Source: a virus. From it: DNA of 32,489 bases. Position 1 is the first letter of the stretch. The number at the start of each line of letters is the position of its first letter. The notes below the pieces were generated by a model. It was not told the origin of the DNA. It saw nothing but the letters and a program-made list of their open reading frames with translations, and searched no databases. Shown in pieces: positions 12,015-32,058 of the stretch. The DNA lies in the IMG/VR virus record IMGVR_UViG_3300020455_000057, positions 1-32,489 of that record; one strand, written 5' to 3'. The translations under genes were made by a program, and so were the position numbers.

Positions 12015-12210
12015 CGTCTCCAAGATATTCGAGTGAGTAAATTTCATGATCTTTAATAGTAGGGTCTAACCATTCGGCAAACTCTGTTTGAATTGCATAT
12101 GCATTCTCTACTGATTCTAGCACATCATTTGATTCCATATCACAAAGAGTGTGCATTCTGTCAACTGCCCATTCATGAGCTATCTCCAGAGTTTTTTCCA
12201 AAGTTACCAT
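12007..12210 (-). CDS. Small acidic protein, 67 aa
   Basis: The start at 12210 (MVTLEKTLEIAHEWAVDRMH) is preferred over the ATG at 12291, which lies deep in the upstream gene. The protein is acidic and helical with no membrane span and ends EYLGDDD. Its start overlaps the GIY-YIG gene by 38 bp, and a perfect-consensus promoter lies 35-63 nt upstream inside that gene. Function is not recognised. Confidence 0.68.
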   Translation of the reverse strand: MVTLEKTLEIAHEWAVDRMHTLCDMESNDVLESVENAYAIQTEFAEWLDPTIKDHEIYSLEYLGDDD

Positions 12211-12628
12211 AATCTTTCCGCATATAGCGTCCGAGAATGTTACTATTATAATATGCCGGAACTCCATTGTCAAGAGATTCGGATAAGACATTATTTAAAA
12301 ATAGTTGTTTTGTCTCTTCATAATTACAATCACCTTTGGTTTTATGAAGAGAAAGAATTTCTCTTCTAAAAAATACTTTATTGTTAATCTCTTTTATATC
12401 TTTTTTTAATTCAGGACAAGAACCATAATACTTTTTCCAATCAGATTCTTGTTTTACTTTTCGTTTCTTTCCTGGTGGTGTTCTGAACGACCAAAAATAC
12501 TTTCTCCCAATGTATTGTCGTCCATTGATGAGATTGGTAATACAGTAAACAAAACCAAAGTAATCCCCAACATCACTACTATCAAAAGTTCGTTCCATGT
12601 AAGTCCAAGGATTTTCATATGAATTCAT
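12173..12628 (-). CDS. GIY-YIG homing-type endonuclease, 151 aa
   Basis: The N-terminal domain shows GFVYCITNLINGRQYIGRKY with the GIY-like GFVY (residues 25-28) and YIG (39-41) spaced as in GIY-YIG nucleases. RKYFWSFRT supplies the following conserved Arg region. KKRKVKQESDWKKYYGSC and FFRREILSLHKTKG resemble Seg-type nucleases of T4-like phages, and YEETKQLFL may supply the metal Glu. It probably cuts DNA to spread itself. It is the first gene behind the terminator/promoter composite at 12677-12713. No intron or split gene is visible around it, so it is free-standing. Confidence 0.82.
   Translation of the reverse strand: MNSYENPWTYMERTFDSSDVGDYFGFVYCITNLINGRQYIGRKYFWSFRTPPGKKRKVKQESDWKKYYGSCPELKKDIKEINNKVFFRREILSLHKTKGDCNYEETKQLFLNNVLSESLDNGVPAYYNSNILGRYMRKDYGNFGKNSGDSS
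12245..12273 (-). promoter_or_regulatory. Perfect-consensus sigma-70 promoter inside the GIY-YIG gene
   Basis: TTGACA (12273-12268) and TATAAT (12250-12245) match consensus at all twelve bases with 17-bp spacing on the minus strand. It lies in the last third of the endonuclease gene and would start transcripts near 12238, 28 nt before the 67-aa gene. Confidence 0.82.
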
Positions 12629-12676: not shown

Positions 12677-12705
12677 ATTCTAAACAAAAAAAGAGAGGGT
12701 GTCAA
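12677..12705 (-). promoter_or_regulatory. Sigma-70 promoter overlapping a terminator
   Basis: TTGACA (12705-12700) and TAGAAT (12682-12677) are 17 bp apart on the minus strand. The -35 box is in the loop and 3' arm of the terminator hairpin, and the terminator T-tract is the promoter spacer. It should drive the GIY-YIG gene at 12628. Confidence 0.8.
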
Positions 12706-12713
12706 GCCCTCTC
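12684..12713 (-). terminator. Rho-independent terminator after the 460-aa gene
   Basis: GAGAGGG/CCCTCTC forms a perfect 7-bp stem (12693-12699 with 12707-12713) around a 7-nt loop, followed on the minus strand by a run of seven T. It lies just after the stop of the 12736-14118 gene. Confidence 0.9.
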
Positions 12714-20778: not shown

Positions 20779-22250
20779 TACTTCTTCTTGGTGTCCATAA
20801 TAGCACCTTTACCGTGCTTGGCACGAATATCTGCCTTCACTTTTTCAAGTGCAGACATTCCATCATATTTTTTCTTGGCAGAACCAATTGCTACATTCTT
20901 AGCAGATTTATCATATCTTACGTTTCCATCAACACCACCACGTTCCATACGACGATCTCTTAAAGAATCTTCGGTTGATTCCTTACGAGTATCACCTCTC
21001 AGTGGTTCTTGTCCTGCACGACGACGTGCTTTATTACCAGCACCTTGATCACCATATCCTGCAAATCTAGCACCCTTTCCGCCAGTTGATTTTTTTTCAT
21101 AACCAGGAGTTCCAGGTCCATCATTACGGACTGCCACATTATGGGCAACTGCACGAGTTTTAGATGATGCAGATGGATCATGCACTTTTGCTGCTACTTT
21201 TTTTTGACGTTCACCAGGACGCATTGCTTCATCAACTAAATCTCCCTCCATATCATAAGACATCTTAAGTCCTCTTGCTCTCAATTTATTTTTAATCAAG
21301 TTCATCATGGCATAATTTCCTCTAGAATCAGGAGCATCCTTCATTTCTTTGGATTTGGGTTCACATGATCCTTCATGAATCTCTCCACATTTTAAACATG
21401 CACCATTTCCTTCATTTTCTTCACTATAATTTAAAGGAAGTCTTCCCTGTCTTTGCATTTGCATTGTCTGCCTCTGCATCATCATTTTTTTCTGAAGCAT
21501 CTTCTTCTTATTGTCAAGTTGCTTCTTATCCTCTGGAGAAGGTCCAGTTTTGGATTTATCCATCTCAGATTGTTGCTCATTCATTGGTGGATTTACAACA
21601 ACCTTATTCTTACCCTTCATTATATCAAGTTTCTTTTCCTTCTGTTCACCTTCGGCAACTTCACCAATAAACTCTTCTTTTGCCATTGCCTTCTTAATGG
21701 CCTTATCTCTGGAACCCATATACTCTGCGGTTCCAGACTCAATTTTTCCATCACCATCATAATCTTTAGCAGCTTTCTTACCCTTTCCAGTCTTATCATA
21801 AGTACTAGGTTCTGCAGCACTCTTACCGGCAATTTCTACAGAAGCAATATTAGGATTCTTTCTCAGTTCTGCAATCTTAGCACGATCTGCTTTTCTAAGA
21901 TAAGACTTACCAGTTTTCTTATCCTTAACTCTTACAGTATACTTACTTCCTTCTGCCCCTTCAAAGATTTTTTCAAAGACACTAAGAACAGCATCACTGG
22001 CAGTATCATTAAGATTTACAAAATCATATTCTTCGCCAATCAGCATCTTTTTAGCAAGTGCCTTTACAGGACCAGGTGCCGGAGACTTACCCAGTTGCTG
22101 CATATAAGCACGCTTCAGTGAAGCAGGATCAGTTTTTTGTCCGTCCTTAAACTGACCTTTTACTTTATATCGAACATCGTATGCTAACTGTCTAGCAGCC
22201 TTTCTTACTTTATCATTAGCACCAGGTGCCTGTTGTGCAGGTTTATCCAT
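20778..22250 (-). CDS. Large Lys/Glu/Ala-rich probable head protein, 490 aa
   Basis: Low-complexity, charged protein. Visible parts are an N-terminal helical Lys/Arg region, a DYDGDGKIESG segment (about residues 164-174) like an EF-hand loop, a Met/Gln/Lys-rich run (KKKMLQKKMMMQRQTMQMQ, about 247-265), a CLKCGEIHEGSC zinc-ribbon-like turn (about 284-295) and a polar Arg/Lys/Gly-rich C-terminal half. EFIGEVAE and LVDEAMRP are possible T4-prohead-protease-like sites. It shares composition and a DEAM motif with the 460-aa protein. An AATAAATA late box lies 24-31 nt upstream. I infer an internal virion protein. Confidence 0.72.
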   Translation of the reverse strand: MDKPAQQAPGANDKVRKAARQLAYDVRYKVKGQFKDGQKTDPASLKRAYMQQLGKSPAPGPVKALAKKMLIGEEYDFVNLNDTASDAVLSVFEKIFEGAEGSKYTVRVKDKKTGKSYLRKADRAKIAELRKNPNIASVEIAGKSAAEPSTYDKTGKGKKAAKDYDGDGKIESGTAEYMGSRDKAIKKAMAKEEFIGEVAEGEQKEKKLDIMKGKNKVVVNPPMNEQQSEMDKSKTGPSPEDKKQLDNKKKMLQKKMMMQRQTMQMQRQGRLPLNYSEENEGNGACLKCGEIHEGSCEPKSKEMKDAPDSRGNYAMMNLIKNKLRARGLKMSYDMEGDLVDEAMRPGERQKKVAAKVHDPSASSKTRAVAHNVAVRNDGPGTPGYEKKSTGGKGARFAGYGDQGAGNKARRRAGQEPLRGDTRKESTEDSLRDRRMERGGVDGNVRYDKSAKNVAIGSAKKKYDGMSALEKVKADIRAKHGKGAIMDTKKK

Positions 22251-25759: not shown

Positions 25760-26160
25760 AGATCTCCTTCTTTGCGATTTTCTGAATAGTGGACATCAAA
25801 CTCTCCACCAGGATATCTAGACTTGAGTTTGTCTACATTCATTTCAATAACCTCATCAAGAGAAATATTAAGTCCCATACATGCCTGAGCAACATACCAC
25901 ATGATGTCACCTAGTTCACGTTTTAGATGAAACATATTTTCTTCATTGACAGGTTTACCCTGAAAGATAATTTTTTTGACGACCTCAGTAAACTCACCTG
26001 CTTCTGCAGACATACCTACGGCAGCAGTAAGAAGTCTCCAAGTTTCAAATCCTTCTCCACGAAGTTCTTGAATACGATATTCAAATGCATCTGCATTTTT
26101 ACTGGGTTGTGATGTAACGGCATCTACAAACTCAAGATATGCGTCAGTATTTACAGTCAT
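25756..26160 (-). CDS. mazG: MazG-type nucleoside triphosphate pyrophosphohydrolase
   Basis: Hydrolyses nucleoside triphosphates to monophosphate and pyrophosphate. The catalytic helices are AEAGEFTEVVKKII (residues 52-65, with Glu pairs) and KRELGDIMWYV (80-90, with the ExxD metal-site). At 134 aa it is a single-domain MazG of the cyanophage type. It is ATGA-coupled with gp41 and followed by small genes. A near-consensus promoter lies 42-70 nt upstream in the end of gp41, so it can be made apart from the replication genes. Known cyanophage MazG proteins are proposed to affect nucleotide pools; the alarmone role is debated. Confidence 0.93.
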   Translation of the reverse strand: MTVNTDAYLEFVDAVTSQPSKNADAFEYRIQELRGEGFETWRLLTAAVGMSAEAGEFTEVVKKIIFQGKPVNEENMFHLKRELGDIMWYVAQACMGLNISLDEVIEMNVDKLKSRYPGGEFDVHYSENRKEGDL

Positions 26161-27530
26161 GAAAAATTAAATCCCTCGAATGATTTCTTTCGTTCCTCAT
26201 CATTATACTCCTCTTCGTTTCCGGAGTCAAGTATGTCATCTTGTGCTTTTTGCTCACAATCATAGAGTCGCATCTTAGCACGATCAACACCTACAATAAA
26301 TCTCTTAAAAATAGTAGGATCATTATATCGATTCTTCAACTGCTTTACCATAATCTGTCCCAACTGTTCCAACTCCTCTGTGCTAATAAGGGCAAACATA
26401 AGATCAGCAGTAGCAGGGAGACCAAAGGATTCACTAGTGTCAGTAATATCAACATCACTGCTACCATAACCAGAACGAGTGGTCTGCGTGGCAGAAACGA
26501 TAGGGACGTTTGCCTCAACAGCCAATCCTCTAAGTTCCTCTGCAATAGCTTTAATATAGCTATATGAATTGACAGAAACACCTGACTTATATCTTGAGGA
26601 AGCACATATATTAAGGTAATCAATGAAAATAATATCAGGTCTAAATGACTTCTTAAGTGCAAGTTCATTAAGAAGTGCCTTAAAATGTCCACTATGTGCA
26701 GAAGCAGTGGGATATTCTTTAATTATAAGAGACCCCTGAGTTTTTTCTGCTAGTCTGGTAACTTTATTTTCAAATGATGACCTTGGAAGATCGGTCAAGT
26801 CCTGGATCGGGACATTGAGGAGGTTGGCGTCAATTCGTTCAGCAATCTTCTCTTCTGCCATCTCCATTGTAATATAGAGAACGTTCCTCCCCTGGAGCAA
26901 CACGGAGCTAGCAACATGGCACATGAATAAAGACTTGCCGACACCTGTACCAGCAAGCGCGATGTTAAGAGTCTTGTTAGGTAAACCACCTTTCGTGATT
27001 TTGTTAAAGTATTCGAGATCGAATTCAATTTTGTCCTCCTTGCGGTGATAAGATTCATATCGTTCTTCATAATCTTGTAGGTAATCATGTCCAATGTGGT
27101 TGTCAAAAGAAACAGCAAGTGCCTCAGAAAGAATGCTAGGAATAGCATCACGATTTTTCTTTTCATCATTACCATCGGCAATGTGAATAGATTCCATAAG
27201 AGCAATATAAATTGCACGATCACGACACCATTTTTCAGTGGTATCTAATAACCACTGAATCTCCACCAAAGAATTATGTAGGGAACTTACAATGTCTCTG
27301 GATTGTTTGATTTCTTCTTCAGTGAGATCAGTTCGATTATCAATCTCAATCTGAAGTGCTTCCTGAGTAATAGTAGAATTGTATTTTACAATAAAATGAA
27401 CTATCTCCTGAAAGATAGTCTTTTCAGTTTTAACTTCAAAAAAATCTGGTTGTATAAAAGGAATTACCTTTCGTGCATAGTCTTCATCAAAAACAAGGTT
27501 TCTTAGGATCGTTGTTTCAATTCTTTCCAT
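26157..27530 (-). CDS. gp41: Replicative DNA helicase (T4 gp41 / DnaB type)
   Basis: Hexameric helicase that unwinds the replication fork and binds primase gp61. The Walker A motif is AGTGVGKS (residues 193-200), Walker B is DIIFIDYLNI, and a later arginine-finger/DnaB-like region contains TQTTRSGYGSSDVDITD. Length (457 aa) agrees with T4 gp41 (475). The N-terminal ~150 residues are the usual linker/N-domain. It overlaps the 45-aa gene before it by 28 nt and mazG after it by ATGA. The 3' end contains the mazG promoter. Confidence 0.95.
   Translation of the reverse strand: MERIETTILRNLVFDEDYARKVIPFIQPDFFEVKTEKTIFQEIVHFIVKYNSTITQEALQIEIDNRTDLTEEEIKQSRDIVSSLHNSLVEIQWLLDTTEKWCRDRAIYIALMESIHIADGNDEKKNRDAIPSILSEALAVSFDNHIGHDYLQDYEERYESYHRKEDKIEFDLEYFNKITKGGLPNKTLNIALAGTGVGKSLFMCHVASSVLLQGRNVLYITMEMAEEKIAERIDANLLNVPIQDLTDLPRSSFENKVTRLAEKTQGSLIIKEYPTASAHSGHFKALLNELALKKSFRPDIIFIDYLNICASSRYKSGVSVNSYSYIKAIAEELRGLAVEANVPIVSATQTTRSGYGSSDVDITDTSESFGLPATADLMFALISTEELEQLGQIMVKQLKNRYNDPTIFKRFIVGVDRAKMRLYDCEQKAQDDILDSGNEEEYNDEERKKSFEGFNFS
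26202..26230 (-). promoter_or_regulatory. Sigma-70 promoter inside gp41 for mazG
   Basis: TTGACT (26230-26225) and TATAAT (26207-26202) are 17 bp apart on the minus strand, in the 3' end of the helicase gene, 42 nt before mazG. Confidence 0.75.
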
Positions 27531-27640
27531 TTATTCAAATAATAATCACTTTCGGGTTCGGTAATAAGAGTCATTCCTCTTTTAATAAAGTCTTCTCCTT
27601 TATCAGTTTCTTTAAATCTTTTTTCGTTTTTATGCGCCAT
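27503..27640 (-). CDS. Small protein between uvsX and gp41, 45 aa
   Basis: Reads MAHKNEKRFKETDKGEDF, then IKRGMTLITEPESDYYLNKW and KELKQRS. It overlaps the end of uvsX by 11 nt and the start of gp41 by 28 nt. Charged and soluble. In cyanophages a small gene often sits here; the function is unknown. It is too short to be found by most length cut-offs. Confidence 0.68.
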   Translation of the reverse strand: MAHKNEKRFKETDKGEDFIKRGMTLITEPESDYYLNKWKELKQRS

Positions 27641-28634
27641 AACTGAACTCCTGTTGTGCTATTTGATCTAGTTTTTGCATCACCTCTTCGGTGAAGTATT
27701 CTTCTGGATCTTTTAAAATTGCTTTTGCATATACTTTTTTACCATTCATCTCATAACGACCTGCCACATTTTTCCAGAGACCACCGAGTTCTCCCAACTC
27801 AAGAAGACCATAATATCGATCAAGACCACGCTCATCGTAATACAGACGCACTGTAACATCCTTGTTCTCCTTACTTAAACGTGACTTAGCAGTCTTTGCC
27901 TTGATAAGATTTCCGACAACTTCTGTTCCATCTTTTTCTTTTTTCTTAGACAAATAGATAATCGTAGACGCAGCATATTTGAGACCACTACCACCACCCA
28001 TTTCTTTTGTAGGAACATAAGAACCGATAACATCGTAAGTATGATTTGTGACAATCATTGGAATGTTTGCTTGACCCAACTTGAGAGTGAGCATACGAAA
28101 GGCACCTTTAATAAGTTGGGATTTAGTCATGTCCCTAACTTGTTTTTCATTGAGTGCATCAGTAATTTCTTTCTCAGTCGAAAGCATACCTAGAGAGTCT
28201 AACACGAACATTAGTGGTTTGCGTTCGTCTTCAGGTTTTTTTAAGTATATGTCTACAGCCTTCAGTGCCTTGCTACGAAATTCTTCGACTGTGACTACAT
28301 TTACGACTACCGTCCTATTTAGATCTACCCCACGACTTGCGAGTAAAGACTTATTAACAGCCGCTTCAGTATCAAAATATAGACACATCCCATCAGGGTT
28401 AGAATCCAGAAAATTTTTGACGACGGCAAGAGAGAAAAAAGTTTTTCCAGTACTAGACTCCCCAGCAATGGCAGTAATCTTATTCCCAGATACACCACCA
28501 AATATAGACCCTGAAACAAGTCCGTTAAAAATGTACGAACCTGTATCAACAAATGTTTCAGTTTCGTCAATGTCTGCTGCGAGTTTTGTGTACTCATCTC
28601 CAATCTCTTTTACTATATCTTTAAGAAAATCCAT
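27630..28634 (-). CDS. uvsX: UvsX recombinase (RecA-like)
   Basis: Pairs and exchanges DNA strands in recombination-dependent replication and repair. Walker A is GESSTGKT (residues 58-65) and Walker B is PLMFVLDSLGML (about 139-150). NHTYDVIGSYVPTKEMGGGSGLKY is the DNA-binding-loop region (seen as two parts: NHTYDVIGSYVP and EMGGGSGLKYAAS). Length (334 aa) is a little under T4 UvsX (391). It shares one base with the gp43 stop and is followed by the 45-aa gene and gp41. Confidence 0.95.
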   Translation of the reverse strand: MDFLKDIVKEIGDEYTKLAADIDETETFVDTGSYIFNGLVSGSIFGGVSGNKITAIAGESSTGKTFFSLAVVKNFLDSNPDGMCLYFDTEAAVNKSLLASRGVDLNRTVVVNVVTVEEFRSKALKAVDIYLKKPEDERKPLMFVLDSLGMLSTEKEITDALNEKQVRDMTKSQLIKGAFRMLTLKLGQANIPMIVTNHTYDVIGSYVPTKEMGGGSGLKYAASTIIYLSKKKEKDGTEVVGNLIKAKTAKSRLSKENKDVTVRLYYDERGLDRYYGLLELGELGGLWKNVAGRYEMNGKKVYAKAILKDPEEYFTEEVMQKLDQIAQQEFSYGA

Positions 28635-31135
28635 TATGCAAAAAATAATTCTAAGTTTACGGTTTTTTCAACATTCCACCCAATGGCATCAAGAATTGCC
28701 TTGAGTGGTTCTACAAAACTCTTTTCAAATTGTAAGTCATAGTCAAGGTACTTGTCAAGACCAAGTTCTTTGGGAAAATCTTGGATAAATGAAATGACAT
28801 TTTCCTGGATAATATTTGGTTTTTTTAGATAAATGAATTTAATCTTTTCACCATTATTAATAAGGGAATACTTATTAGTCAATTTATGTTCTTTTATATA
28901 GTGGTTAAAAAGAAGTGCTCCACGACAGTGAATAGGTGTTCCCTTTGCATAGATGCTGGAATGTGATTTGTACTTAACCACATCCGATACTGAACGAGGG
29001 AATGCAATTTCTTCTGGAGGAAGAGACTTAAACTTAACCCTACAGTCATCAATAAATTTAATGACATCCTCCTCAGTACCATTCATCATCAGTTTCAGAC
29101 CATCTTTAATCATCTGACGACAAGGTGCCGGTGTAGATGATTTAACTGCCTCAATACCCATCATCTTGAGTTTAGGTTCAGAATATTGAACTCCCTCACT
29201 ATTCCATACATTAAGGATATAACGTTTTTTTGCGGTCCAAATACCACGTTCTGCGATATTCTCACGCTTCATAATCATTTTTTGTTCATATGCCTGAACG
29301 TAATCCGCAAGGTCCGAATAAGATCGTTCGATGAATGGTTCCAACTTGTCTTCACAGATCTTGTCAAGTATCGAAACAATTGCTGTTTTATCGCCAGACT
29401 TACCACTAAAAAATTTATCAACAAGAGGTCCCATATTAAGATAGATGGAGTCAGTGTCAGATGCAATGACATAATCCTCCCCCTCTGTTTGTAAAAGTTT
29501 ATTTAGGTATCCGTTCATACGATTTTCAATCCATCGAATCGAAACTTGACCTGAGAGAGTAATTGCTTCAGCATTTGCCAGTTTATAATACCTAAAATAC
29601 TGATTACCAATAGCACCATATGCAGAGTTGAGCTGAATCTTTCGTGCCATCTGGATGTTGTTGCATCGGGCAATTTCCTTTTCCAGTGCCTTCGTTGGAG
29701 TTTTTTCATAATCTTGTTTTGCCTGAAGCATTTTCTTTTTATAAATGGTTCGATCTTTATAGATCTTCTCCATCAATTCTGGCAAGAACCCACGAACATC
29801 CTTCCGATACATGGCACCATTAGCACATACCGCACTGTCCTTATACATCTCAAATGTTAGTTCCTCATTAAGGATTTTATCAACTGTTGCACTTGGGTGT
29901 CGGGTATCCTGTAACGTCTCTGGAGAGATGTTGTATTGCATAATAAGATGAGGGTAGAGACTATTAAGGTCAAAAGACACAACCCAATCATACTTTCCCG
30001 GAATCGGTTCCTTAACATAAGCACCTGCATATTTTGAGTCCTTATCAGAACGTTCTTTAGGAGGAATTACAATGTTTCTTTTCTTCAGATAATTATAGAT
30101 GATTGTATCCCACATACGAACTTGTGAAAAGACATCGGCATAATTTGCCTTTGCATCATACGCCATCGTAATGGCAAGTTCAATTAGTTTCATCTTGTCT
30201 TCCATTCGGTCAACAAGTTCCACGTCAATAATGTTATACTCTACAAACTTCTGCCACCCTTTAGTATAGAAGTCTTTAAAAGTATCAAACTCAGAGTGAT
30301 CTAGTTTCTTTTGCCCAAGTTCAATACTGGCAATATAATCAAGACGATAAGATTCTTGTGCCTTATAAGTAAATTTCTTATAAAGATTCAAGTAATCGAG
30401 TTGAGTGACACCGCCGATGTCATACGCAATATTTTTTCTACCTACAATGTAAATTTCACGTTCAGTTACAAGTCCCCATGGAGAAAGTCTCTTCATGAGT
30501 TTCTCACCAAGAATGCGATCAATACGACGAACCAAATATGGAATATCGTACAGTTCACTATTCCATCCAGTAACAACTTCAGGAGTATTTCCCTCAATCA
30601 TCCACCAGTTAATAAAGTCAGTCAGCAGTTCGTATTCTGTACGAAACCCCTTGTAAATAACGTTCTCTTGTTTATTTAGAAATTGACCCCTTCCCCAAGT
30701 GCGAATCTGTTTTGTAGAGTAATCTTGAATCGTAATCAAAAGAACTTCTTCGGCGGCAGATTCTACATCGGGGAATCCGTTCTCTGATGCAACCTCAATA
30801 TCAATGGTGGCAATCTTAATCTTTTGAGTATCGAACTTAATTTCTTCTTCGGGATACATCTCAGAAATATACTGATAGATGTATCGGTCATTACCATAAA
30901 TCTTGAAGTTATCTACACCGTCATATCGTTTGATAAACTCACGACAATCACGAACGGTTCCAGGTTCTATAGATTCTACATATTCACCTTGTAGAGTTTG
31001 ATACTTTGTTTTCTTATTAGACTCAACAAAAAGAGTCGGGTAAAACTTCTCACGGGTTGCAAAATGGCGACCATTTTCATAACCACGAACCAAGAAGTGA
31101 TCCCCGACCATTTGAACATTAGTATAAAAACGCAT
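28634..31135 (-). CDS. gp43: DNA polymerase (T4 gp43 type, family B)
   Basis: Replicative polymerase with 3'-5' exonuclease. Exo I is TIDIEVASENGF (residues 110-121), Exo II GWNSELYDIPYL (190-201) and Exo III NIIDVELVD (301-309). Polymerase motif A is FDLNSLYPHLIMQYN (388-402), motif B is the KIQLNSAYGAIGN segment (499-511) and motif C is SDTDSIYLN (559-567). At 833 aa it is slightly shorter than T4 gp43 (898). No intron, split or inserted homing gene is visible. It follows the Sm-like gene without a gap and is under the early promoter at 31435-31463. Confidence 0.97.
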   Translation of the reverse strand: MRFYTNVQMVGDHFLVRGYENGRHFATREKFYPTLFVESNKKTKYQTLQGEYVESIEPGTVRDCREFIKRYDGVDNFKIYGNDRYIYQYISEMYPEEEIKFDTQKIKIATIDIEVASENGFPDVESAAEEVLLITIQDYSTKQIRTWGRGQFLNKQENVIYKGFRTEYELLTDFINWWMIEGNTPEVVTGWNSELYDIPYLVRRIDRILGEKLMKRLSPWGLVTEREIYIVGRKNIAYDIGGVTQLDYLNLYKKFTYKAQESYRLDYIASIELGQKKLDHSEFDTFKDFYTKGWQKFVEYNIIDVELVDRMEDKMKLIELAITMAYDAKANYADVFSQVRMWDTIIYNYLKKRNIVIPPKERSDKDSKYAGAYVKEPIPGKYDWVVSFDLNSLYPHLIMQYNISPETLQDTRHPSATVDKILNEELTFEMYKDSAVCANGAMYRKDVRGFLPELMEKIYKDRTIYKKKMLQAKQDYEKTPTKALEKEIARCNNIQMARKIQLNSAYGAIGNQYFRYYKLANAEAITLSGQVSIRWIENRMNGYLNKLLQTEGEDYVIASDTDSIYLNMGPLVDKFFSGKSGDKTAIVSILDKICEDKLEPFIERSYSDLADYVQAYEQKMIMKRENIAERGIWTAKKRYILNVWNSEGVQYSEPKLKMMGIEAVKSSTPAPCRQMIKDGLKLMMNGTEEDVIKFIDDCRVKFKSLPPEEIAFPRSVSDVVKYKSHSSIYAKGTPIHCRGALLFNHYIKEHKLTNKYSLINNGEKIKFIYLKKPNIIQENVISFIQDFPKELGLDKYLDYDLQFEKSFVEPLKAILDAIGWNVEKTVNLELFFA

Positions 31136-31413
31136 TATGCAATAGCTGCTAGATACTCATCAACAAGTTTTCCGTTTGGTTCAACAAAAGTTAGAACATC
31201 TGCTGATCGAATTAAGATCTCATCCTGATTCGTAAAAGTCAACCAAGGTTCAATGTACTCTTCAGTTTTAGTATCAGTATTAATACCAAGAACAATTCGA
31301 TATGGTTTGATGATTTTACAATCAGGTTCTCCAATTTCACCAAACAGTTCTTGAACTTCACCAATCAAAACTTTATCATCTCTCAATAAAATACACTGTA
31401 TGTTTTTTTCCAT
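31135..31413 (-). CDS. Small Sm/Hfq-like protein, 92 aa
   Basis: The protein has a compact beta-rich pattern: IQCILLRDDKVLIGEVQEL, then EPDCKIIKPYRIVLG, EEYIEPWL and a last strand ILIRSADVLTFVEP. This resembles the Sm-like protein of putative cyanophage origin that has been described structurally, and small proteins of this type occur next to cyanophage polymerase genes. I see no other motif. If it is an Sm protein it could bind RNA or act as a ring-shaped adaptor. It is the first gene after the terminator/promoter composite, so it should be made early. Confidence 0.65.
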   Translation of the reverse strand: MEKNIQCILLRDDKVLIGEVQELFGEIGEPDCKIIKPYRIVLGINTDTKTEEYIEPWLTFTNQDEILIRSADVLTFVEPNGKLVDEYLAAIA

Positions 31414-31434
31414 AGTGATTCAATTCCTCCAAGT

Positions 31435-31463
31435 AGTATAGCAATAAAAAGGGGAGGTGTCAA
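31435..31463 (-). promoter_or_regulatory. Sigma-70 promoter for the replication cluster, overlapping a terminator
   Basis: TTGACA (31463-31458) and TATACT (31440-31435) are 17 bp apart on the minus strand. The -35 box lies in the 3' arm of the hsp20 terminator and the terminator T-tract is part of the spacer. GGAGGAATTG downstream provides a ribosome site for the Sm-like gene. Confidence 0.85.
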
Positions 31464-31487
31464 ACTGGTTTGTGCCAGTTTCCTCCC
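31445..31487 (-). terminator. Rho-independent terminator after hsp20
   Basis: Outer stem GGGAGG (31487-31482) with CCTCCC (31457-31452) and inner stem AAACTGG (31481-31475) with CCAGTTT (31468-31462), followed by CTTTTTATT on the minus strand. A 4-nt bulge (GACA) separates the two stems on one side. Confidence 0.85.
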
Positions 31488-31515
31488 TATCTGCGGCGAC
31501 GATATTCAATTCTAT

Positions 31516-31950
31516 TTAGAACCATACTTTTTTCTTGTGTGCCTCTGGTACTACCTTTCCAAGTGTAATACTCAGAAGCCCATCCTCAAAGCTAACTGAT
31601 CTAACTTCCGTCTCGTCACTGAGTGTCCAGCACCTTGTGAAAGATCGTTGAGCCACTCCTCTATGGACGTAATCTGTGTTGGTTTCTCCATCTTCTCTTT
31701 GTCCTTCGACAAAGAGTTTACCGTCTTGTGTGTAGACATTTACTTGATTTTTTTTAAATCCTGCTAGTGCTAGTTCTAATACAGATTCTGTGTTGCTGAC
31801 CTGTATTAGATTGTACGGAGGATAATTCGATGTCGTTTCATGCAACGAAAACAGACGATTGAAGTATTCATCCATACCAATACTATTCCTATTTATGCGG
31901 TCTAGCAGTTGATCTAGATTGGCGGCATTATACTTTGCTAAGTTGTTCAT
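31516..31950 (-). CDS. hsp20: Small heat-shock protein Hsp20
   Basis: ATP-independent chaperone of the alpha-crystallin family. The start at 31950 (MNNLAKYN, 144 aa) has AAGGAGAAG just upstream; the longer frame lacks one. The alpha-crystallin core runs from NLIQVSNTESVLELALAGF through GKLFVEGQRED to FTRCWTLSDETEVRSVSFEDGLLSITLGK, with the typical ILxI-like end. A TATAAATA late promoter lies 58-65 nt before the ATG. Phage Hsp20 is common in T4-like cyanophages and is thought to help virion assembly. A terminator follows. Confidence 0.93.
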   Translation of the reverse strand: MNNLAKYNAANLDQLLDRINRNSIGMDEYFNRLFSLHETTSNYPPYNLIQVSNTESVLELALAGFKKNQVNVYTQDGKLFVEGQREDGETNTDYVHRGVAQRSFTRCWTLSDETEVRSVSFEDGLLSITLGKVVPEAHKKKVWF

Positions 31951-32007
31951 TGTACTTCTCCTTATTAAAGCGAGATTTGATTGTGTGGACCCCGAAGGCA
32001 TCCGGTA

Positions 32008-32026: not shown

Positions 32027-32058
32027 AAAAAAAACGGGGTGGTGAACCCCGTAGTTTT
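32027..32058. terminator. Terminator after regA
   Basis: ACGGGGT (32034-32040) pairs with ACCCCGT (32046-32052) around a 5-nt loop. Both sides carry A/T runs (eight A upstream and TTTTTT downstream on the plus strand), so it could work in both directions; it is mainly needed on the minus strand after regA. Confidence 0.9.

Follow-up and report, generated by a model that had tools for sequence, protein, structure and literature searches.

A hairpin terminator that overlaps a sigma-70-type promoter, and a putative small late RNA gene ending in it, upstream of the replication genes of T4-like cyanophages

The window, the whole stretch of 32,489 nucleotides that was analysed (IMG/VR record IMGVR_UViG_3300020455_000057), derives from a T4-like cyanophage; its minus strand carries regA, hsp20, a DUF6561 gene, gp43, uvsX and gp41. 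The hsp20 gene (31516..31951, minus; PF00011, E 1.5e-14), with a likely ATG start at 31951 and the ribosome-binding site AGGAG, is followed by the DUF6561 gene (31135..31413, minus; PF20198, E 4e-25), which encodes a protein of Sm/LSm-like fold and is the first gene 3′ of the unit described here, by gp43 DNA polymerase (28634..31135, minus) and by uvsX (27630-28634, minus) and gp41 (26157-27530, minus). An earlier sequence-only reading had located a fusion of terminator and promoter between hsp20 and the Sm-like, gp43, uvsX and gp41 genes; this fusion is confirmed and is conserved across copies. Elsewhere in the window, a strong hairpin between regA and hsp20 (ACGGGGTTCACCACCCCGT, 32034-32052) with T-tracts on both strands is likely a two-way terminator, and a manA RNA (RF01745, 105 bits) directly adjoins a tRNA gene (433-628 and 630-703, minus).

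On the minus strand the gap between hsp20 and the DUF6561 gene reads TCTAAATAGAATTGAATATCGTCGCCGCAGATA-GGGAGG-AAACTGG-CACAAA-CCAGTTT-GACA-CCTCCC-CTTTTTATTGCTATACT. The composite at 31487-31435 contains everything that had been read from it, a terminator with TTGACA in its 3′ arm and TATACT 17 bp away. Both stems of the supposed two-stem terminator exist as well (GGGAGG/CCTCCC and AAACTGG/CCAGTTT), but they are stacked helices of one single hairpin, which has a CTTTTT tail and whose 3′ side is interrupted by a GACA bulge. The 5′ arms of the outer stem (GGGAGG, 31482..31487) and of the inner stem (AAACTGG, 31475..31481) are followed by the loop CACAAA (31469..31474) and the inner 3′ arm CCAGTTT (31462..31468), whose final TT opens the -35 hexamer TTGACA (31458..31463), while the last four bases of this hexamer form the bulge. 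The outer 3′ arm CCTCCC (31452..31457) and the terminator T-tract TTTTT (31446..31450) are both located within the promoter spacer, and the -10 hexamer TATACT (31435..31440) is extended by TG at 31443-31442. The hairpin, stable, GC-rich and directly followed by a T-tract as is typical of an intrinsic terminator, folds with -20.3 kcal/mol (z = -3.1), which only one of 200 shuffles equals or surpasses. With TTGACA, a 17-bp spacer and TGcTATACT, the overlapping promoter matches the sigma-70 consensus at 11 of 12 positions and ranks first among the promoter-like sites of the scanned 17.5 kb, tied at 11/12 with three others; its predicted start is near 31428, upstream of the DUF6561 gene.

The conserved sequence extends beyond the hairpin. 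Upstream and outside of it lies a near-invariant 5′ core, TATCGTCGCCGC in the window (31493..31504, minus; consensus TATCGTCGnCGC in alignments A1 with 59 and A2 with 47 sequences), preceded by the T4-type late-promoter motif TAAATA (31513..31518, minus), which overlaps the hsp20 stop codon. The general layout of the element consists of TAAATA, 8 bp, TATCGTCGnCGC, a hairpin with covarying stem, a T-tract and TATAAT. The motif behaves as a T4-type late promoter would, being directional and upstream of transcribed units, as [AC]TAAATA is found in the window with 19 occurrences on the coding strand versus one on the other, and upstream of open reading frames 54 versus 2 times in S-SRM01, 24 versus 1 in S-SM2 and 21 versus 6 in T4 (18-54 versus 1-3 among six cyanophages). 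That hsp20 is a late gene, as classified earlier, is plausible in the light of its own upstream late motif TATAAATA (32015-32008, minus), while the second motif at its stop codon heads a separate element. Late polymerase may consequently arrive from two places, with the same hairpin stopping both. As T4 late promoters have a characteristic geometry, the start of a putative late RNA can be placed at G31507 and its end at the T-tract; the predicted transcript of about 62 nt (31446..31507, minus) folds with -19.5 kcal/mol (z -2.9). Gathered in this short stretch are the sequence features of a small RNA gene, namely a promoter motif, a conserved structured RNA and a terminator, independent of the neighbouring genes.

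A scan of IMG/VR with the inner hairpin detected at least 120 stretches, from which 111 distinct copies were read. Among the matches listed, a promoter with at least 9 of 12 consensus positions is present in 110 of 111 distinct copies, a share that is overestimated, since the copies were collected by exact match to the inner hairpin, a pattern that holds no more of the -35 hexamer than its TT but tends toward promoter-bearing forms. The -35 hexamer is TTGACA, TTGACG or TTGACT in 107/111 of the copies listed, the spacer amounts to 17 in 107/110 and an extended -10 (TGn) is found in 99/110. TAAATA is located upstream in 99 of the 111 copies among the listed matches, and in 80 of these 99 the distance to TATCG is exactly 8 nt. 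At loci L298, L302, L317, L345, L358 and L369 the element occurs in a variant form, with GGCTACCTTGT, or a similar sequence, inserted after the late motif and ahead of the TATCG core.

The way in which the element varies points to an RNA structure under constraint. Over the whole structure 71 cells are changed on both sides, compared with 22.4 in shuffles, and 95.6% of cells are paired versus 89.2% in shuffled alignments. Seven of the eight outer pairs changed on both sides across copies, while the loop (consensus CACAAT, variants CAAAAT and CACAAA) is, like the 5′ core, near-invariant in alignments A1 and A2. The inner stem is invariant in promoter-bearing copies and differs, with compensation, in S-PM2 and S-RSM4. 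One DNA stretch is thus exposed to two constraints, the RNA stem and the sigma-70 hexamers, with the inner stem frozen and the outer stem freely covarying. The conserved block was also considered as coding (frame EYRRRRQGGNWHNPV before the TGA of TTGACA) and rejected, as the window copy has an in-frame stop and the copy at L005 is shifted. That the core corresponds to a segment of 16S rRNA is improbable in view of the base that varies within it.

Of 25 records searched with a covariance model built without the promoter (R1), 14 gave one strong match each, at most one per phage record, while T4, KVP40, Aeh1, SPO1, HTVC008M, P-SSP7 and the Prochlorococcus myoviruses P-SSM2, P-SSM4 and P-HM2 gave none. 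A degenerate version of late motif, core, hairpin and promoter at the hsp20 junction of Sf-CH8 was missed by R1. At a loose threshold 212 phage records match, nearly all of them cyanophages and mostly at sites without an annotated feature. The core-hairpin pattern has no match in a genome collection of 84,980 bacterial and archaeal species, and in Rfam 15 the element reaches the gathering threshold of no family, with a permissive threshold giving chance matches only. The putative RNA gene would be one of T4-like phages of Synechococcus, present no more than once in any genome.

The embedded promoter and the hairpin can be separated. Relatives that keep the promoter and lose the hairpin had been named as evidence against the earlier reading, and such evidence exists in part, the promoter being present and the hairpin absent at the distant Sm-like loci L017, L020-L022 and L034; the reverse is seen in Syn9, S-PM2, S-RSM4 and Sf-FS3, which keep late motif, core and hairpin with no embedded promoter. 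In Sf-FS3 a separate TTGACA-N17-TATGAT is located just downstream of the element, whereas in Syn9 and Syn19 the element has hli genes on one side and psbA on the other. The promoterless form of Syn9 is found at 164,122-164,188, and the elements of S-SM2 and Syn19 at 121,605-121,675 and 166,136-166,212. As the promoterless relatives keep the element, the RNA unit appears to be what is conserved, with the promoter as a frequent addition, which suggests reading the element as a late RNA gene of about 62 nt whose terminator would, in the majority of relatives sampled, also serve as a host-type promoter, as a rule for DUF6561 and gp43.

Among the matches listed, 83 of 107 copies are followed by a gene of one and the same cluster, with representatives assigned to phrog_431/483 or PF20198 (DUF6561), and the gene upstream to the hsp20 cluster in 54 of 78 listed copies. 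The label 'Sm-like' given to the DUF6561 gene on sequence grounds is right by fold, as the model of the window protein (mean pLDDT 85.8) matches PDB 3by7 with a TM score of 0.81, a match also found by profile search (E 9e-7); 3by7 is described as similar in structure to Sm/LSm RNA-binding proteins. The presence of a U-tailed predicted RNA beside the gene for an Sm-fold protein is suggestive. Another conserved leader, TAAATACTGACTGCGGTGATCCCCTTTGGTAGGTTCAGGATTAGCGGCGATAGGAATCTACC, about 70 nt long and with a late-promoter motif at its start, is found just before the Sm-like gene at loci L018, L019, L023-L026, L028, L035, L038, L041, L044 and L046; in many loci it follows a fused GGGATC-TTGAC-GATCCC-T7-TATAAT unit, and six loci scanned gave no Rfam match.

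Overlap of a terminator with a promoter is not restricted to this element. Hairpin terminators were predicted in the whole genomes of ten named cyanomyoviruses and two IMG/VR relatives, with T4, KVP40, Aeh1, SPO1, HTVC008M and P-SSP7 for comparison, and the positions of sigma-70-type promoters were then measured relative to the hairpins. In 13 cyanomyovirus records and the window, 29 promoters with at least 10 of 12 matches have a -35 starting 12-18 nt before the hairpin 3′ end, versus 3.5 expected from neighbouring positions (Poisson P ~2e-17 with homologues counted, ~2e-11 when only 22 of the 29 are taken as independent). When the -35 has to match at 5/6 positions or better, 24 fused units are observed, whereas 179 permutations of the -35 hexamer give 2.0 on average; the best permuted hexamer, ATTGAC with 14 units, is the same motif moved by one base. 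The six comparison phages show no excess, with 3 promoters in phase versus 2.2 expected; individual fused examples are nevertheless present in KVP40, among them, at 150222 (plus), AAGGGTTGACAGATGTCAGCCCTT followed by TTTTGTATGCT.

Most stem sequences of the fused units have no relation to one another, as shown by GGGGTCCTCTTGACAGGACCCC in Sf-CH8, GGAGGGGGCCTTGACCCCCTCT in S-8S55 and AAGGAGAGTTGTCAAGACTCTCCTT in S-SM2, so that most units are not copies of each other. In annotated stretches of S-SM2, S-SRM01 and P-SSM2 several are located between a stop codon and the next co-directional gene, such as one that precedes hli03 in S-SM2 and one that follows a porin gene in S-SRM01, and one S-SM2 unit overlaps a small annotated open reading frame. 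In P-SSM2 a 12/12 unit (142791-142828, L385) overlaps the regA stop codon and is followed by an untranslated leader of about 220 nt and then by a gene annotated purL. The window holds a second fused unit at 12677..12713 (minus), GAGAGGG-cTTGACA-CCCTCTC-TTTTTTT with TTGACA-N17-TAGAAT, which is also found in the relative G001 at 21847 (minus); it is the 'copy 1' of the sequence-only reading, which is borne out here. The octamer TTGACACC that this reading had noted in both composites is present, although as a sign of copying it is not significant alone, as 31 of 100 shuffles hold two or more. The gene after this unit (12173-12628, minus) matches the SegE GIY-YIG endonuclease (Pfam E 3e-53); the label of its best PHROG, NAD synthetase, is probably wrong.

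Taken together, the composite is probably the 3′ half of a small late RNA gene whose terminator doubles as the promoter of the replication operon. From sequence, conservation, covariation, phase, copy number and gene context we infer how transcription, its timing, termination efficiency, promoter occlusion and RNA function may be related at this site. TAAATA, read by a gp55-type late sigma factor, would start the RNA of about 62 nt at ~31507, with the near-invariant 12-nt segment at its 5′ end, and the intrinsic terminator at ~31446 would end this RNA as well as the hsp20 mRNA. A host-type promoter (sigma-70/SigA) serving the Sm-like/gp43 operon would have its -35 hexamer and its spacer in the 3′ side of the same terminator. 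Until late transcription sets in, host holoenzyme would start at ~31428 and transcribe DUF6561-gp43; as this start is downstream of the hairpin, the operon mRNA would not contain the terminator. Later, phage-modified polymerase coming from hsp20 or from TAAATA would stop at 31446, on the -35/-10 region, and termination on the promoter would insulate the operon and probably occlude the promoter. A stretch of 50 bases would in this way do two jobs, as stop signal of an RNA gene and as start signal of replication genes.

Two parts of the sequence-only reading are less well founded. A switch operating by late read-through, the least supported part of that reading, is probably wrong, as the copies retain stem, bulge and T-tract through compensatory substitutions, which makes insulation likelier than designed read-through. 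The designation of the replication genes as early is uncertain, cyanophage replication genes being usually classed as middle. Yet marine T4-like cyanophages have been reported to be without T4-like middle promoters and motA and/or asiA (PMC5780444), so that it is a fair question how the replication genes are switched off at the onset of late transcription. A late RNA unit ending inside the promoter of the gp43 operon would be a concrete and testable answer.

More tentatively, the RNA might be a trans-acting late sRNA that works with the adjoining DUF6561 protein, while its synthesis silences the promoter of that very gene within the RNA terminator; we regard this extension as rather unlikely. 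In seven phages base-pairing targets of the 5′ core near start codons were no better than those of shuffled seeds. If the extension is true, RNA and DUF6561 protein would constitute a compact RNA/chaperone switch that leads from replication into the late phase.

Among the alternatives, the simplest dispenses with the RNA gene altogether: the hairpin would only be the hsp20 terminator, the promoter inside it would save space and the upstream conservation would be incidental. Terminator/promoter fusions with unrelated stems are indeed common in cyanophages, and after hsp20 S-8S55 possesses a different hairpin/promoter overlap, but a plain terminator requires neither a conserved core nor a conserved loop, whereas the 12-nt core and the loop are retained across many phages with differing neighbour genes and at a fixed distance from TAAATA. 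This explanation is rather unlikely, and the small late RNA gene with a promoter-bearing terminator is preferred.

Unlikely, and somewhat more so, is that the element acts in cis as a late leader or attenuator, where the late promoter would drive the operon too, the core would control a conditional terminator and the embedded promoter would serve as an earlier bypass. Such a leader would resemble other cyanophage leader RNAs, e.g. manA and wcaG (PMC2864571), and a co-directional gene does directly follow the element in most sampled copies. A cis-acting leader would, however, always stand upstream of a co-directional gene that it controls, whereas the gene annotated next to it in S-PM2 runs in the convergent direction, so that there, at any rate, the element cannot act as a leader in cis; moreover, the downstream genes vary (DUF6561, tail-lysozyme-like, oxygenase) and no alternative antiterminator structure is apparent in the predicted fold.

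The geometry of the preferred RNA gene, with the release point inside the promoter, also allows a rival outcome in which terminated polymerase is dropped on the promoter and restarts there. Escherichia coli RNA polymerase stays on the DNA after intrinsic termination and restarts nearby if it holds sigma, and added sigma-70 raises the efficiency of restart (PMC6978380). Such recycling appears improbable here, as late polymerase would carry the phage sigma and not sigma-70, and the effect had, according to the same source, not yet been observed in vivo (PMC6978380). That a protein bound to AACTGG-N6-CCAGTT represses the promoter is most improbable: the inner palindrome abuts the -35 and is invariant in promoter-bearing copies, but the outer stem covaries, retaining its pairing as its sequence changes, promoterless forms keep hairpin and T-tract with altered inner sequence, and other fused units carry unrelated palindromes.

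Terminators, late promoters and small phage RNAs are known; their combination is, to our knowledge, undescribed. The literature search found no description of the unit, with earlier notice possible in the Syn9 transcriptome study (doi 10.1038/ismej.2015.210), which it did not cover. With the element comes a candidate noncoding RNA that Rfam 15 lacks and that adjoins an Sm/LSm-fold gene in most sampled copies. With intrinsic (Rho-independent) terminators it shares the GC-rich hairpin, the T-tract and compensatory changes, but its 3′ side doubles as -35 and spacer, and loop and 5′ core are conserved beyond the needs of termination. As in T4-type late promoters (TATAAATA, gp55/gp33/gp45), TAAATA is strongly directional upstream of open reading frames, whereas here it is located 8 bp before a conserved core and not immediately ahead of a protein-coding gene. 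CfrI of S-PM2 is likewise a cyanophage noncoding RNA, but as a psbA antisense RNA of ~225 nt (PMC12197685) it differs from the predicted RNA of about 62 nt, which lies in another place and is not antisense to a gene. The manA, wcaG, glnA and PhotoRC-II RNAs (Rfam) are also structured RNA elements of T4-like cyanophages, of different sequence and structure, while the element described here has its own late motif and terminator. In the templates used for RNA polymerase recycling a terminator is physically tied to a following promoter, as it is here, but there the two are separate (PMC6978380), whereas in the cyanophage element they overlap base for base.
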